44,439 nucleotides of DNA. It comes from Candidatus Woesearchaeota archaeon. GTDB taxonomy: Archaea > Nanobdellota > Nanobdellia > Woesearchaeales > GW2011-AR9. Below the pieces are notes generated by a model that was given only the letters and a program-made list of their open reading frames with translations, did no database searches and was not told the origin of the DNA. Of this stretch, positions 43 through 17,873 are shown piece by piece (the stretch's first letter is position 1; each line of letters begins with the position of its first letter). The position numbers and the translations under genes were made by a program. Location of the stretch: contig JACRPH010000047.1 of the NCBI GenBank assembly GCA_016214025.1, positions 1 through 44,439 of the forward strand. The letters are read 5' to 3'.

Positions 43-56
43 CGTTGATAGAATAA
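1..56 (+). CDS. C-terminal end of a gene that begins before the window
   Basis: The first 56 bases read in one frame as CDATIAFPLLVAGTLIE followed by a TAA stop. The frame is supported by a second copy at 3696-3737, which encodes CDATLAFPLLVAGS. Two of the four base differences between the copies are silent, and a third and fourth together give an Ile/Leu exchange. I do not recognise the family. The rest of the gene lies outside the window, so its function cannot be judged. Confidence 0.5.
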   Translation, partial: CDATIAFPLLVAGTLIE

Positions 57-105
57 CTTTGGTCGTAGTCATATTAATAAAGAATTAAGTTTATTCTATT
101 GTAAT

Positions 106-651
106 ATGAAATTTGTCAAATTAAACCATCCAGATTCGCAGGAATTTAGAGAAGCATGGGAGATATATGAATCTTCTTTTCCATTGGATGAAAGAAGAGC
201 ATTAGGATTACAAAAAGAATTAATTAAAAATAAACTGTATCATTTTTTCATAGCATTAAAAAATAAAGTTTTAGTTGCAATAATTACTGATTGGGATCTT
301 GGAAATTTTTTGTTTGTAGAGCATTTAGCAGTTAAAGAAGAATTCAGGGGAAAAGGAATCGGAACAAAATTACTTAAAGAATACACCTCAAAAAACAAAC
401 AAAAAATGGTATTAGAAGTTGAAAGACCAGATAATGAGCTGGCTCGTAAAAGGATAAGATTTTATGAGAGAATTGGATTTAAACTAAATACGTTTGATTA
501 TCTCCAGCCATCTCTTGGAAAAGACAAAAATCCAGTTCCCCTGTTTTTAATGACCTATCCGGATAAGATAAATAATTCTGAGTTCTCTTCAACAAGAAAA
601 AAAATACATACTATTGTTCATGGATTAAAAAATCCTCTTTTAAGCAGCTAA
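106..651 (+). CDS. GNAT-family N-acetyltransferase
   Basis: A 181-residue protein with the GNAT core. The acetyl-CoA pyrophosphate-binding loop is visible at about residues 76-90 (VKEEFRGKGIGTKLL, the R/Q-x-x-G-x-G/A signature), followed by an [ER]-rich strand and the late helix RIRFYERIGF that is typical of the fold's C-terminal half. The family transfers an acetyl group from acetyl-CoA to amines; the substrate cannot be told from sequence. It lies alone on the plus strand, opposite the radical SAM operon. It could be a tailoring or resistance enzyme of that block, but nothing shows this directly. Confidence 0.85.
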   Translation: MKFVKLNHPDSQEFREAWEIYESSFPLDERRALGLQKELIKNKLYHFFIALKNKVLVAIITDWDLGNFLFVEHLAVKEEFRGKGIGTKLLKEYTSKNKQKMVLEVERPDNELARKRIRFYERIGFKLNTFDYLQPSLGKDKNPVPLFLMTYPDKINNSEFSSTRKKIHTIVHGLKNPLLSS

Positions 652-736
652 GTTAATTAAATCTCTTTTCAAGACATAGCTACTGCTGCAGACCTGCTGA
701 ATTTAAGCAAAAATAGATTATTAATCAGAAATTATC

Positions 737-2008
737 TTAAGATAGAATTTTTCCTAAATTATACTGAGCAATTCCTTTTCTAATTATACAAAGATCTTGA
801 CCTGTTATTCTAGTAGTTGGACAATCTCCAGCACAATGATATTTCACAAAACATTGATTACACTTTTCCGGTAAAGTAGTAGTTAATTCCGCTATTTTAG
901 CAACGCCTCTTTCATCATACCGAAAAACTCCTTGTTCAAATCTACCGTAATTATAGATAGTACCTTCAGCATCCCCCTCACAAGCAGTAACAATACCCTT
1001 AGTAGTAACCACAAAAGAAGGGCGGGCTAAAGAATTGCAATACGTGGAAATCACCCTATCAGTATTATCTGAAGAACAAGTAACTTTAATCCCAAGTTCA
1101 GTCCCTTTCTCTTTAGCAGCAAGATAATTCACTAAAAACAACTCTTGCGAGGGAGGAGAAGCCAGATGCATCTCTCTTGCCCGACCGACTGGGAAACAAG
1201 GCTCAAAAACTACATCTGCTTTGTTTCCTAACTCATCATCAAAAAAACTGATAATTTCTTCCATCCTTCGAACATTATAATCTGTAACCGTAACTCTTAC
1301 TGCAAAAGAATTAGAGTGAGAAGCAAAGTATCTTCCAGAGTCAATAACATCCGGGAAACTTTTTTTTCCATCACGTGTAGGCCTATGTTTATTCTGGATG
1401 TCTTCAGGACCATCAAGAGATAGATTAATATTCCCAAAATGTTCTACCAAGTATTTTCTCTCCAACTCATTATAATAGCCATTAGTAGTTATACTTAACC
1501 GAAAGGGTAAATTATGCTTCTTTCCTGCTTCATTTATCTTTTTAACACTACTCCTAAACAAAGGCCAATTTATTGTTGGCTCACCTCCAGCAACAAAAGA
1601 GACAATTACACTTTTGCAATTTCTCTCTACACTTGTTCTAAAAGCGTATTCTACTGCTGTTTCTAGAAGTTCTGGATTCATTGATTCTTTTCTTCCCGCT
1701 TCAGCATGACAATAAATACAGCTGAGAGTACAATCTCTGGTTAATTCCAGAGAAAGATGTAAATCAGAATTATCAACGGGTGGTTCCGGTACGATCTTTC
1801 TCTTAAGTCCTTCCAAAAGAGATTTTTTTAGGTAGTTAATATCATCACAATCAGAATCAAAACCGCTCTGACTGATGAGTTCCGCTAAACCATCTGAAAT
1901 CAAAAAAAGTTTTCGAAGCAGAGGAGCATAAAGCATAGTATTACTCCTAGAGGTAGGGATAAAGAAAAGTTCTCCTCCTTCGAAGGTTACCATCTTTGGT
2001 GTTCTCAT
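737..2008 (-). CDS. Radical SAM/SPASM peptide maturase
   Basis: A 423-residue radical SAM enzyme. The [4Fe-4S] motif is C93-x3-C97-x2-C100 (DCTLSCIYC), followed by the SAM-binding GGEP at 141-144. The C-terminal third has a cysteine-rich SPASM domain (TYCNS, TACEG, CNQCFVKYHC, AGDCP, DLC) of the kind that holds auxiliary clusters in sactipeptide and ranthipeptide synthases and in anaerobic sulfatase maturases. The first 75 residues precede the radical SAM core and may be a peptide-binding region, though no clear RRE/PqqD signature is visible. Its ATG lies 1 nt after the stop of the small Cys-rich gene 2010-2207, so the two are almost certainly co-translated. The likely job is post-translational modification of that peptide. 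Confidence 0.85.
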   Translation of the reverse strand: MRTPKMVTFEGGELFFIPTSRSNTMLYAPLLRKLFLISDGLAELISQSGFDSDCDDINYLKKSLLEGLKRKIVPEPPVDNSDLHLSLELTRDCTLSCIYCHAEAGRKESMNPELLETAVEYAFRTSVERNCKSVIVSFVAGGEPTINWPLFRSSVKKINEAGKKHNLPFRLSITTNGYYNELERKYLVEHFGNINLSLDGPEDIQNKHRPTRDGKKSFPDVIDSGRYFASHSNSFAVRVTVTDYNVRRMEEIISFFDDELGNKADVVFEPCFPVGRAREMHLASPPSQELFLVNYLAAKEKGTELGIKVTCSSDNTDRVISTYCNSLARPSFVVTTKGIVTACEGDAEGTIYNYGRFEQGVFRYDERGVAKIAELTTTLPEKCNQCFVKYHCAGDCPTTRITGQDLCIIRKGIAQYNLGKILS

Positions 2009-2009
2009 T

Positions 2010-2207
2010 TCAAAAGATGATACAATTGCTTCGATCGTAGTTTACGCAATTACATCCGTACCTTCCACAACCCCTTTCTGTTTCTAAATACCCTAGATTA
2101 ACCTCGCCAAGAATTCTTCTAGGTACGCTGTCTCTGTTTAGAGAAGATTCAACTCTCACTAAGGTGCTAGATTCACTCACTTTCTCTTCCAACATTAGTT
2201 TGCACAT
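2010..2207 (-). CDS. Candidate RiPP precursor peptide, Cys-rich C-terminus
   Basis: A 65-residue protein preceded by a strong GGAGG site about 9 nt before its ATG. The first ~45 residues are charged and cysteine-free apart from C2. The last 20 carry four cysteines, C47, C52, C54 and C62, in GCGRYGCNCVNYDRSNC followed by IIF. A leader plus a short Cys-rich tail directly before a SPASM maturase is the standard layout of ranthipeptide/sactipeptide precursors. The family is not recognised, and the precursor role is inferred from composition and position. A stand-alone small zinc-binding protein is the main alternative. Confidence 0.6.
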   Translation of the reverse strand: MCKLMLEEKVSESSTLVRVESSLNRDSVPRRILGEVNLGYLETERGCGRYGCNCVNYDRSNCIIF

Positions 2208-2240
2208 TTTCAGTTTCCTCCGTTATTTTAATTTTTTGTT

Positions 2241-2507
2241 TTAGTACTGCTCCGTTAATTCTCTGTGGATATTATACCCACACGAAGTTTTATTATACAA
2301 TTTTTCATCAAATCTGTCTTTTTCTTTCAGAGAACAGGCGATAACCGGATAACCCTCATCATTATATCTTCTAACCGCATATCCGCATAACACCTCTGAT
2401 CGGCCATCAGGATAAATGACTGCAATTATATCTCCTGAGTCTACATCATATGAATCTGGGATGTGACATCTAATCTCTCTTTGGAAAATATTATTCTCTC
2501 TTGGCAT
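2241..2507 (-). CDS. Small protein of unknown function in the RiPP operon
   Basis: An 88-residue protein with a likely beta-rich fold: alternating hydrophobics and several Asp-Gly turns (VDSGDIIAVIYPDGRSEVL). It contains four scattered cysteines at about residues 14, 41, 53 and 76. No family is recognised. It lies 13 nt after the 68-residue gene and 33 nt before the candidate precursor, on the same strand. It may be an accessory binding protein for the peptide or a second substrate. A weak purine-rich stretch precedes the ATG. Confidence 0.6.
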   Translation of the reverse strand: MPRENNIFQREIRCHIPDSYDVDSGDIIAVIYPDGRSEVLCGYAVRRYNDEGYPVIACSLKEKDRFDEKLYNKTSCGYNIHRELTEQY

Positions 2508-2519
2508 CTTGTATCCCTT

Positions 2520-2726
2520 TTATTTTTCAGTGTTTTTCTGGCTTTGTGTCCTATAATCAGAAGCATCTTTCAACGAACTCAGCATTGCGTTATATAACCC
2601 TCTGCCAAATCTTTCACCTGCTCTAGTTCTATCTCTTTCCTGCTGCAATCTTTCATTCATCATTTCATTTCTCTTTGATAATGAGTACATCCCAAACATT
2701 TGCTCAACAATTGTTCTTCTTTCCAT
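2520..2726 (-). CDS. Small charged helical protein, first gene of the RiPP operon
   Basis: A 68-residue, Arg/Glu-rich protein predicted to be mostly helical (SKRNEMMNERLQQERDRTRAGERFGRG). A TTATTATA box lies about 30 nt before the ATG, matching the leaderless promoters elsewhere in the window, so this is probably the first gene of the 2726-737 transcript. No family is recognised. It has no cysteines, so it is an unlikely substrate for the maturase. Confidence 0.55.
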   Translation of the reverse strand: MERRTIVEQMFGMYSLSKRNEMMNERLQQERDRTRAGERFGRGLYNAMLSSLKDASDYRTQSQKNTEK

Positions 2727-2816
2727 GCTTTCAACATTAACCAGAATCTATAATAATTCTTGGTTTAATCAAAATCAACCAAAAAGTTTAAGTGTATGTC
2801 CGTTTTACTTAAGTTT

Positions 2817-3644
2817 ATGCTTAAACCACTCGAGATGAAAAGTAAAGAGAAGATAATCAGTATCTTAGCTAATAAATATCCTTTAAGCATCATGCAAATC
2901 CATAATTCTTTGGGTGTTGATAACCTTTCTTATCAAGCAACATTTAAAAATGTCAAGGAGCTGGTTACAGATGGGATTCTACAAGAGGATCAGGCAAAAT
3001 ATAAATTAAGCTTATCTTGGATAATTGAACGGAAGAAGTTTTTTGAAAGATTAGAATTATATTACAACAAAACAAACCATTCTCTGCACTCGAAAGTATT
3101 TTCAAACAGGGAAACTTCTATTTATGAATTTGATAGCTTAGTCGAAAGCGATTTATTCTGGTGCGAGATTTTGATTAAAGGCGCATCAATAAGCAGAAAT
3201 CTGGTCACAACGTGGGAGGGCTCCCATGCGTGGGGGATAATCGGTAATTTGGAAAACGAAGATCGTCTTTTGAATAATTTGGCAAAATATAAAGTCAAAT
3301 CATATTTAAAAATCACCAGAAATACTTATTTGGACAAAATGTCAAATGAATATTATTCGCATAAAAATTGCTTTTCAAAAATTATTCCTGCGCCTAATAA
3401 CATTAATTATTATGGCACTTCTGGTCCGTTTTTGCTCAAGGTTTCAGTTCCAAAAGAATTAGCTGAGCAATTGGATGATTTATATCGAAAAGCAAAATCA
3501 TACGAAGACTTTAATCCGATCCAATTTATGAAAATAATCAATGGAAAACAAAAAATAAATTTGGAGTTGATTAATAATTATTTTCTTGCTGAAACGATTG
3601 CTAATAAGATTATCTCCGATATTAAAGAAAACGGTAAAGACTGA
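2817..3644 (+). CDS. Winged-helix transcriptional regulator with C-terminal ligand-like domain
   Basis: About 275 residues. The N-terminal ~65 residues look like a winged helix: KEKIISILANKYPLSIMQIHNSLGV, then a recognition-like helix, then ELVTDGILQEDQAKYKLS as wing. The rest is not recognised. The ATG at 2817 was preferred over an in-frame ATG at 2796 because a TTTAAG box near 2786 lies about 31 nt upstream, the usual leaderless spacing here. The gene diverges from the RiPP operon and shares its ~70-nt promoter region, so it may regulate that operon. A run of eight T follows the stop. Confidence 0.65.
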   Translation: MLKPLEMKSKEKIISILANKYPLSIMQIHNSLGVDNLSYQATFKNVKELVTDGILQEDQAKYKLSLSWIIERKKFFERLELYYNKTNHSLHSKVFSNRETSIYEFDSLVESDLFWCEILIKGASISRNLVTTWEGSHAWGIIGNLENEDRLLNNLAKYKVKSYLKITRNTYLDKMSNEYYSHKNCFSKIIPAPNNINYYGTSGPFLLKVSVPKELAEQLDDLYRKAKSYEDFNPIQFMKIINGKQKINLELINNYFLAETIANKIISDIKENGKD

Positions 3645-3649
3645 AAAAG

Positions 3650-3657
3650 TTTTTTTT
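3650..3657 (+). terminator. T-tract terminator
   Basis: Eight consecutive T residues begin 6 nt after the TGA of the winged-helix gene. Archaeal intrinsic termination needs only a T-rich tract, so this is a plausible end for that transcript. Confidence 0.45.
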
Positions 3658-3784
3658 GAGTAAAGTGAAAGTGAATGCTCCGCAGGTGAAGATATACTGC
3701 GATGCGACGCTCGCTTTTCCACTATTGGTGGCGGGAAGTTTTGCAGTAGAAGAGGATGCGAATAATACCGAGAAGCAAAATTAG
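3656..3784 (+). pseudogene. Gene fragment or 42-residue ORF carrying the CDATxAFPLLVAG motif
   Basis: The frame reads from TTG 3656 through KIYCDATLAFPLLVAGSF to the TAG at 3782-3784. No ATG exists in this frame. The central 14 residues match the gene end at the window's left edge. I read it as the displaced 3' end of a gene or a worn paralogue. A small intact protein with a TTG start is the alternative. The final 14 residues (EEDANNTEKQN tail) have no counterpart in the left copy. Confidence 0.4.
3696..3737 (+). repeat. Direct repeat, right copy (left copy 1-42)
   Basis: Identical at 38 of 42 positions to 1-42, in the same orientation. It contains a short dyad, CCAC-N5-GTGG, at the 3' side of the coding motif. 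Together with the left copy it delimits 3.65 kb holding the GNAT, radical SAM and regulator genes. Confidence 0.75.
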
Positions 3785-13403: not shown

Positions 13404-13479
13404 ACGGCGAGCACCACAGCTTAGAAAAACAAAAGAGTATTTAAAGTTTTAGGAGGTGTTTAAGAAAATAAAGGATGAT

Positions 13480-13598
13480 GCGTCGGCCGGGATTCGAACT
13501 TCCGAATGTCCATCCTTTAAAGACATTTCCCGGATCATCAGCTCTCATCACCTTCTGGTTTGGAAGGCTGAGATACTAAGCCATTATACCACCGACGC
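13480..13598 (-). tRNA. tRNA-Gly (anticodon UCC) with two introns
   Basis: On the minus strand a full cloverleaf can be drawn once two segments are removed. The acceptor is GCGTCGG/CCGACGC (7 bp). The anticodon stem is TCAGC/GCTGA with loop CTTCCAA (anticodon TCC). The T stem is CCGGG/CCCGG with loop TTCGAAT. Intron 1 (about 13543-13559, 17 nt) is at the canonical site after position 37. Intron 2 (about 13499-13528, 30 nt) interrupts the T arm next to position 53 and carries an AATGTC/GACATT hairpin. The mature length would be 72 nt. CCA is not encoded. Exact splice points are uncertain by a few bases. Confidence 0.85.
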
Positions 13599-15815: not shown

Positions 15816-17873
15816 TCACTTGGCAAGCTTAAACAGTTCTTCGTAAAACTCCTCCACATTTTTACCGTATTTGGCGGAGACGCCTACAACTTTATACTGG
15901 GGGAAAGCGGATTGAACGGCATCTATGCTTGCTTTCTTAAGGTCAACTTTGTTAGCGGCAATTAGCACCGGAATATCTCTTGCTTGTAGGTTTCCCAGAA
16001 TGGTAACGTTGACTTGGGAGTAAGGGTCTTGGGTCGCATCTAGGACTACGATAACGGAATCCATCTTATCCAGCCATTTGATGGAATCTATAACCCCTTT
16101 AGTAGCTTCTTTGGCTCTCTTCTTGGACTCGTCTTTGTTTAATCCTTTACGCATAAAATCCTCAAAATCCACTTTAGTAGCAATGCCGGGAGTATCTACC
16201 AGCGAGAAAGTAAGCTGTTTACCTCTTTTATTCTTTATGGTAACCTGCTCTTTCATGATAATCTCCCGGGTTTCATGCGGAATGTGAGAAACGGCAGACA
16301 TGCTTTCTCCCAGCCAGTCTTCGCAGATGCGGTTGGCTAGAGTGCTGTTATGGGCAATTAACCCATTAGAAATCATAAACGTGTGTGTGTCTTCAATAGT
16401 AAGGTCGTAAACATAACTATCGTAAGGCATCTTCTCTATGGAAATGATATTATCCCACCGGCAATCACTATTAGCAATTTTAGATATCAAAGGATGACTG
16501 TTCACCTCAGCCATATTCTTCAGCCGATGGTAGCTAATGCGGTTGTTATGTAGCATTCTAGCCCCATGTTTCCCATCCAGAAAGAATTCGGCTTGAGTTA
16601 ATCCCTGCTGCTTTCTAATCTTTTCCAAAAGCCCAACTATGGGGAGTGTAAAAGCGTTTCTTTTTAGGGGCACTGGATGATTATTCTGGCATAATTGTTC
16701 TAATCGCTCTTTCTTGTAGCCAATGGTAAATCCAATGTTATTTCGGAACAGCTTATGATTATCACTGCCTCTGATAGACAACCGGTAGTAAGACTGCCCT
16801 TTTACTTTCTTTTCCCAGAACTTGCCTACGATGCCAAACCGATTTAGCAGCAACTGCACCTGCTCTACTAATTTTCTGCTCTTACTGGAGTACTCAATTT
16901 CTTTTCCTCCCGCAGATTTAACGTTCTTGCTTACATATCCTTCACAATCATACAAAGTTTTAAGCAGCTCTGCAGTAAGGTTATCGGGCAGGCCCATTAA
17001 TTGAGCCGGAATTTCTTTGGATTCTGCTGTCCCCGGCTTTAAATGTAATATTTCTTCAAGGTAATCCGTAAGTGTTTTTGAGCTTACATCCAAAGCAACA
17101 GAACCCTTTCTAAATCTCTTGATTGGCTGCAGCTTAAACAGTTCTAGGCTAAGCTTCTCAAAATCATTAATAAGATTATCATCCTGATTGGTGAAAATTA
17201 TTCGATTTTGAGTGTGGTAGCTTTCAGTTATAGCATAACCTACGAATCGTACCAGCCGGTCGTCAACTATAGATGGCACAGTGATGCCTTTTGGATGATG
17301 CCACTTCGCCGGGGATATAAGCATTCCGTTTTCATACTGGTAGTGCGCTTCTTGTACTACAGGCAGAGTGATGGTAGAAGCCAGAGCTGCTTTTTGAGCT
17401 ACGGAGATACAGTCACCCACTTTTAATTCCGAGCTTAAGATTTTATTAATTCCACCGTTGGAAATGGTAATTAAGGGATGATTTGGGGTTACTTTAATCT
17501 CCCTTCCGCTGGAAGTAGTAATTTTGTAGATGTCTCCGGTATATTTCTGTGCATATACGAAAGAAATCTTCTTAGGAACGATCTTAAGGTTTTCAGTGTC
17601 AAGACTAGGTACAACTAAATCCAACTCACTACAATCAATAAACGTCTCTTGAAAATTAGCGCATGAATTAAAGTTACCTAGTTTGTCTCTGACTTCTTCA
17701 AATATCTCTTGGATGGATTTGATTTCTCCATTAAATTGTACAATTTTAGTATCGGAAGTAACGCACTTTCCACCATTCGGCGGCCCATATAACCCTAGCT
17801 TAACCTGATCCCGTTTAGCAAACGGATTAAATGAAAGTAACTTCAACAGCTTCTCGAAAAATGAATTTACCAT
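15816..17873 (-). CDS. Era-like GTP-binding protein interrupted by an intein
   Basis: A 685-residue precursor. The exteins (residues 1-36 and 510-685) form a small GTPase of 212 residues: P-loop GPPNGGK|ST, G3 DTPG, G4 NKVD, G5 SAK. This is the archaeal Era-like/COG1100 protein that neighbours DUF2073 and OapC. Residues 37-509 are an intein inserted between the invariant P-loop lysine and the following serine, so the protein cannot bind GTP until splicing occurs. There is a T-rich, AT-rich region upstream at 17874-17994. Confidence 0.9.
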   Translation of the reverse strand: MVNSFFEKLLKLLSFNPFAKRDQVKLGLYGPPNGGKCVTSDTKIVQFNGEIKSIQEIFEEVRDKLGNFNSCANFQETFIDCSELDLVVPSLDTENLKIVPKKISFVYAQKYTGDIYKITTSSGREIKVTPNHPLITISNGGINKILSSELKVGDCISVAQKAALASTITLPVVQEAHYQYENGMLISPAKWHHPKGITVPSIVDDRLVRFVGYAITESYHTQNRIIFTNQDDNLINDFEKLSLELFKLQPIKRFRKGSVALDVSSKTLTDYLEEILHLKPGTAESKEIPAQLMGLPDNLTAELLKTLYDCEGYVSKNVKSAGGKEIEYSSKSRKLVEQVQLLLNRFGIVGKFWEKKVKGQSYYRLSIRGSDNHKLFRNNIGFTIGYKKERLEQLCQNNHPVPLKRNAFTLPIVGLLEKIRKQQGLTQAEFFLDGKHGARMLHNNRISYHRLKNMAEVNSHPLISKIANSDCRWDNIISIEKMPYDSYVYDLTIEDTHTFMISNGLIAHNSTLANRICEDWLGESMSAVSHIPHETREIIMKEQVTIKNKRGKQLTFSLVDTPGIATKVDFEDFMRKGLNKDESKKRAKEATKGVIDSIKWLDKMDSVIVVLDATQDPYSQVNVTILGNLQARDIPVLIAANKVDLKKASIDAVQSAFPQYKVVGVSAKYGKNVEEFYEELFKLAK
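16347..17765 (-). mobile_element. Intein with LAGLIDADG-type homing endonuclease region
   Basis: A 473-residue intein. Block A is CVTSDTKIV (C1 nucleophile). Block B is GREIKVTPNHPLITI with the T-x-x-H residues. Block F is DSYVYDLTIEDTHTFMISNG. It ends in HN before the +1 serine. Between B and F are two degenerate LAGLIDADG-like helices, FVGYAITESYHT and LLKTLYDCEGYVS, each keeping an acidic residue, and an HTH-like stretch (LTQAEFFLDGKHGARML). All splicing residues are present, so protein splicing is expected. Endonuclease activity is uncertain. Confidence 0.9.

Follow-up and report, generated by a model that had tools for sequence, protein, structure and literature searches.

The window, by which we mean the whole stretch of 44,439 nucleotides analysed here (contig C42), comes from the 1.43-Mb, 97% complete genome of a tiny archaeon of symbiotic type that belongs to the Woesearchaeales, or an equivalent order, of the DPANN archaea. 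Close to the start of the contig, four ORFs follow one another on the minus strand, transcribed in the order 68 aa (2520–2726), 88 aa (2241–2507), 65 aa (2010–2207) and 423 aa (737–2008), the last of which was recognised as a radical SAM (rSAM)/SPASM maturase by its ORF call and a Pfam match to PF04055. The 65-aa ORF, a Cys-rich candidate precursor peptide, was singled out by its ORF call, its Shine–Dalgarno sequence and the recurrence of the pair in other genomes; the two ORFs upstream of it are orphans known from ORF calls, and the 88-aa one may be co-transcribed. On the plus strand, a GNAT acetyltransferase gene (106–651) converges on the maturase gene from one side, and a 282-aa protein (2796–3644) is encoded divergently on the other. 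Two plus-strand deoxyhypusine synthase 3′ ends enclose this group: the last codons of the gene (CDATIAFPLLVAG..) at the very start of the contig (1–42), which form the left copy of a 42-nt direct repeat, and a right remnant copy (3656–3784) with the repeat at 3696–3737. An earlier sequence-only reading had described the layout of 737–2726, and its coordinates agree with our ORF list. Elsewhere in the window, a P-loop protein (15816–17873; motif GPPNGGK) continues as CVTSDTKIV right after the motif, which looks like an intein insertion, and a 120-nt Rfam tRNA match (13479–13598, minus strand), missed by ARAGORN, is probably an intron-containing tRNA.

The 65-aa peptide (MCKLMLEEKVSESSTLVRVESSLNRDSVPRRILGEVNLGYLETERGCGRYGCNCVNYDRSNCIIF) can be divided into a leader of roughly residues 1–45 and a core of roughly residues 46–65 (GCGRYGCNCVNYDRSNCIIF). 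Besides C2, there are four cysteines, all within the final 20 residues, as had been claimed from the sequence, and arranged as C47-X4-C52-X-C54-X7-C62. At least four cysteines in the last 20 residues were seen in 2 of the 181 short ORFs of the window and in none of the 173 in the reversed sequence. The immediate vicinity of the gene bears out the same reading: a single base separates its stop codon from the maturase ATG, and the ribosome site is indeed strong, with GGAGG (2217–2221, minus strand) standing 9 nt upstream of the ATG, a placement shared by only 12 of the window's 1445 ATGs. The core peptide had been described as belonging to no recognised family, and neither Pfam nor NCBIfam gave a match. 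We do not claim homology between the window peptide and other precursors, for which pairwise alignment and leader profile gave only weak p-values: against the precursor of the sister locus L069 the Cys-fixed shuffle returned p = 0.019 and BLASTP no match, and a search of the window leader with the leader profile of the other precursors returned p = 0.08.

One likeness of the peptide would allow a different reading of its second half. Residues 24–54 resemble a conserved stretch of the archaeal ribosomal protein uS5 (VPxR...RGCGxxxCNC), and uS5 is the best non-self match of the peptide in related genomes (E = 0.003–0.08; 36% over 33 aa). Against a uS5 profile the peptide scores 14.3 bits, a value reached by 0 of 3000 Cys-fixed shuffles, and ranks first among 6556 short ORFs, the runner-up scoring 7.4 bits. 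The second half could thus derive from uS5 or mimic it, and the peptide could act on the ribosome or have been captured from it, in which case the maturase might still modify it. However, this is one borderline likeness, noticed after the fact; the Pfam uS5 models did not match the window peptide, and the sister precursors L069 and L071 are absent from the best uS5 matches. We consider this reading very unlikely.

The 423-aa enzyme (PF04055, 5.7e-13) consists of an N-terminal RRE-like domain (residues 1–75), an rSAM core with the motif C93-X3-C97-X2-C100 and a SPASM motif, C324-X13-G338-X4-C343 / C383-X2-C386-X5-C392-X3-C396 / C407, that is complete with 7 Cys by the criterion CX9-15GX4C / CX2CX5CX3C / C. 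Across an alignment of 29 sequences, the rSAM cysteines C93, C97 and C100 are invariant, as are the SPASM cysteines C324, C343, C383, C386, C392, C396 and C407. The best NCBIfam model was that of PapB (NF047865; 105.2 bits against a cutoff of 340), followed by the SCIFF, nif11 and CefB maturases, and the window maturase missed all curated cutoffs by far; the PapB, SCIFF, nif11 and CcpM peptide-maturase models match all 29 of the maturases. CteB came first in a profile search of PDB sequences (E = 5e-57). It was also found at the top by Foldseek with an AlphaFold model of the maturase (pLDDT 86.8, pTM 0.87), where the CteB structures 5WHY and 5WGG aligned over nearly the full length (E = 6.6e-22), ahead of anSME, ChlB, TigE and SuiB. 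The order of secondary structure in the N-terminal part of the model is bbbb-aa (residues 5–68), which comes near the strict order bbb-aaa of a RiPP recognition element (PMC12710340) without matching it exactly. Judging from the profiles and the predicted fold, the window enzyme is most likely an rSAM/SPASM peptide maturase with a fold nearest to that of the thioether-forming CteB.

Homologues of the maturase at about 25–31% identity were found in other DPANN archaea, in CPR bacteria and in several bacterial phyla. The genome contigs yielded them to an alignment query, whereas a single-protein query found nothing; many weaker rSAM matches in relatives, being maturases of other types, were not considered. 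As a pair we counted a maturase homologue with a same-strand ORF of 35–135 aa within 200 nt that has at least four cysteines and 10% Cys in its C-terminal 60%, and as controls we took a further 124 genes from these loci. With the window left out, such an ORF adjoins 19 of the 28 homologues, a share that may be somewhat inflated since the alignment whose best matches make up the 28 was itself seeded with members that have the pair, compared with 7 of the 124 control genes (p = 4e-12). A search for the same two-gene pair in related genomes, which the sequence-only reading had proposed as a check, is thus answered in the affirmative, and extends to unrelated genomes. In other families of the same order, maturases about 30% identical to that of the window adjoin Cys/Asp-rich ORFs: one of 71 aa with 8 Cys in G060, two paralogues of 104 and 108 aa in G120, one of 70 aa in G177, one of 68 aa in G157, and one of 60 aa downstream and another of 53 aa upstream in G099. 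Beyond the order, the pair occurs in Pacearchaeota, Phycisphaerales, KSB1, Bacteroidales, Tannerellaceae, deltaproteobacteria, WWE3, Dojkabacteria and Anaerolineae. Within the phylum the maturase family is rare (13 of 371 genomes), and the viral contigs scanned for the maturase held only distant rSAM proteins. At one locus (L073:4953–9995), uL3 and uL4 of a ribosomal protein cluster are separated by a maturase–peptide pair.

Only the peptide recurs as a neighbour in the ten contexts compared, which makes the unit just two genes; neither an exporter nor a peptidase gene recurs near the maturases in these contexts. The sactipeptide/ranthipeptide-type layout read from the sequence therefore holds for the pair, with a maturase nearest to CteB, but finds no support for a wider operon with a divergent regulator and two small upstream genes. 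The ORFs taken as the latter do lie on the same strand, but their status as genes is unsupported: a search of 96 related genomes turned up no convincing homologue of the 88-aa ORF, and the fetched loci contain none of the 68-aa ORF. For the divergent 282-aa protein, the label "winged helix" found no backing in Pfam, where the only match was RHH_1 at E = 0.06, and its place in a RiPP operon is unsupported as well: the only homologue found, 73% identical, comes from G011, where it occupies the same locus and adjoins a remnant of deoxyhypusine synthase, while the maturase is absent from that genome. From this comparison, the 282-aa gene is probably a component of the locus rather than of the RiPP unit. 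The G011 locus (L189:7786–11906) combines the deoxyhypusine synthase remnant and the 282-aa homologue with apparent arginase- and decarboxylase-type genes and a deoxyhypusine synthase paralogue, and may represent polyamine genes grouped at this site.

The spacing of cysteines in the recurrent peptides was compared with shuffled expectation for 20 precursors, the cores of which were delimited by eye. CXC exceeded expectation in 17 of the 20 cores, CX2[D/E] in 16 and CX3C in 14, whereas CXXC fell below it in 19, CC in 18 and CX3[D/E] in 14, the last being depleted over the family as a whole (z = −3.0). The CXXC spacing is typical of zinc sites. Favoured CXC and CX3C together with avoided CXXC and CX3[D/E] argue against both zinc knuckles and plain PapA-type peptides. 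The ten precursors that we scanned against the NCBIfam families had no match. The leaders of the recurrent peptides fall, by eye, into an RLED-like group in archaea and Phycisphaerales, an FG.V group in G099 and CPR, and an NDRL group in KSB1, Bacteroidales and deltaproteobacteria. At two loci, that of G120 (L041) and L080, the precursors behind one maturase are paralogues in which the leader is constant and the core varies. At L080:7361–8406, at least four such paralogues stand in a row, with a constant YRL.. leader and varied Cys-rich cores. The 18 Cys of a WWE3 peptide (L084:4708–4998) are spaced almost regularly, as repeats of CX3C/CXC (CDNDCSRDC).

These spacings bear on the alternative that the 65-aa product is a small zinc- or Fe–S-binding protein that adjoins an unrelated rSAM enzyme by chance. 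Four cysteines within 16 residues could bind metal, and about 6% of the control genes also adjoin Cys-rich short ORFs. On the other hand, Cys-rich neighbours of homologous maturases occur far above chance. An alignment to a zinc-binding protein, which the sequence-only reading had named as evidence against its proposal, did not emerge: the CX4CXCX7C pattern of the peptide lacks CXXC, no zinc family in Pfam or NCBIfam matches it, and the precursor set avoids CXXC. At the level of sequence, recurrence and spacing support a RiPP pair over a zinc protein, which we consider very unlikely.

Movement of the unit between lineages is suggested by two peptides from different domains. The upstream peptide of G099 (L044:2330–2491) and a Dojkabacteria peptide (L090:4978–5136) are almost the same, aligning over CYGDC.DNCDCYCE.YC.DDD with a score of 144 compared with 92 for the best of 2000 Cys-fixed shuffles, and the adjoining maturases are sisters in the tree (support 96/92). 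Near-identical peptides beside sister maturases point to exchange between DPANN and CPR, and the Dojkabacteria–Woesearchaeales match is a clear case of inter-domain transfer of a biosynthetic unit. In the same tree, the window maturase groups with that of L069 from Bacteroidales (96/91) and then with L071 from Ignavibacteriales (89/83), apart from the other Woesearchaeal copies, although the branches are long and its exact place is unsure.

The surroundings of the window's copy indicate how it may have arrived. The two copies of the 42-nt repeat are 90% identical, each corresponds to the C-terminal end of a deoxyhypusine synthase (PF01916), and their conserved 19-nt part is found only there in the genome; the first part of this genome's own deoxyhypusine synthase lies on contig C64. 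In G001, of the same genus, an uninterrupted deoxyhypusine synthase end is followed by the homologue of the 413-aa gene, that is, the site is empty. The duplicated gene ends and this empty site suggest that a 3.65-kb block (43–3695) with the GNAT gene, maturase, peptide, orphan ORFs and 282-aa gene was inserted where the deoxyhypusine synthase gene ends. Considering also the place of the maturase in the tree, the unit probably came in with this small block by lateral transfer. Its position between duplicated gene ends and at a contig end, along with the lack of a recognised integrase, exporter or peptidase near the unit, would also fit a decaying remnant that was brought in by the block and is no longer active. 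Yet the maturase ORF is intact and keeps every catalytic and SPASM cysteine, and the peptide gene retains its strong ribosome site, making decay improbable.

Taken together, we judge it likely that the genes at 2010–2207 and 737–2008 form a minimal RiPP unit in which the peptide is cross-linked by the maturase. In the mechanism that we propose, the N-terminal leader of the peptide would bind the RRE-like domain of the maturase, and cleavage of SAM at the CX3CX2C cluster would generate a 5′-deoxyadenosyl radical that could abstract hydrogen from an acceptor residue in the core. One or more thiolates of C47, C52, C54 and C62, held at an auxiliary SPASM cluster, could then close a thioether of the ranthionine or sactionine type, each link lowering the mass by 2 Da. 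A PapB-like option is offered by C54-X3-D58; D58 is the only acidic residue of the core, so that either one such link would form or other acceptors would serve. Other proteins, with genes outside this locus, would presumably remove the leader and export the product.

A variant of this scheme concerns the nature of the bond, namely that maturase and substrate do belong together but form something other than a Cys thioether, such as a C–C cyclophane, an epimerised residue or a Cys-derived cofactor, the cysteines being left free, joined in disulfides or bound to metal. SPASM enzymes with similar scores make other bonds (the window maturase also matches the quinohemoprotein amine dehydrogenase, DynA, YhhB and AmcB maturase models), its identity to its nearest relatives is only about 30%, and the peptide neighbouring the L071 maturase has just two cysteines and ends in CQWWT. 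Nevertheless, the nearest structure (CteB) and the best profile (PapB) both belong to thioether formers, and regularly spaced cysteines dominate the cores. We thus regard a different bond as rather unlikely, while giving it some weight.

DPANN archaea and CPR bacteria, whose genomes are small, are believed to live on other cells, and little is known of their small molecules. With a compact pair common to both groups, absent from curated sets and easy to express as one peptide and one enzyme, it would be possible to test directly if such cells make cross-linked peptides, and which bond this maturase clade forms. It is conceivable, though we advance it tentatively, that these precursors represent a class of Cys-cross-linked peptides of their own, marked by CXC, CX3C and CX2[D/E] instead of CX3D and encoded by a two-gene unit that moves among DPANN, CPR and larger bacteria, and that its product could, in symbiont-like DPANN and CPR cells, act during contact with host or competitor cells. 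Such systems had been called little described in DPANN, which needs qualification. In its accessible part, an antiSMASH survey reports ranthipeptide/sactipeptide-type clusters across archaeal superphyla including DPANN (PMC12144867), and RiPP clusters in DPANN are counted in the accessible part of another study (PMC12153355); with such bulk predictions at hand, mere presence is not new. What the accessible part of the former gives is counts and distribution, with no rSAM precursor, family or spacing described there, and our search of the open literature found no description of this maturase–precursor family.

Among characterised systems, the sactipeptide maturase RumMC (NF035951) is distant, the window maturase scoring 46.5 bits against a cutoff of 720. 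CcpM (TIGR04068), CefB (NF038107) and TIGR04463 share the arrangement of a SPASM maturase next to a Cys-rich precursor, but the window scores of 64, 80 and 48 bits compare with cutoffs of 500, 600 and 525, and the scanned precursors match no NCBIfam family. The SCIFF maturase CteB (TIGR03974; 5WGG, 5WHY) is the closest structure by profile and by fold, with the same domain order and an N-terminal leader-binding region; it differs in score (96.7 bits against a cutoff of 425), in having six core cysteines where the window peptide has four, in a precursor known to NCBIfam, which the window peptide is not, and in its clostridial host. PapB, which acts on PapA (NF047865; PMC9413430), gives the best profile, and likewise combines an rSAM and SPASM enzyme with a Cys-rich precursor. 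It joins Cys to Asp or Glu across zero to six intervening residues, CX3[D/E] being the PapA motif (PMC9413430). In this system the bond to Asp is a thioether at the beta carbon, formed with a change of −2 Da. The window core contains this motif once, as C54-X3-D58, and not as the repeated Cys-X3-Asp/Glu of PapA; the match of 105.2 bits remains far from the cutoff of 340, CX3[D/E] is depleted here while CXC, CX3C and CX2[D/E] are enriched, and the hosts include DPANN and CPR. The window pair is best grouped with the PapB/CteB-type maturase systems, as a variant outside the curated families.
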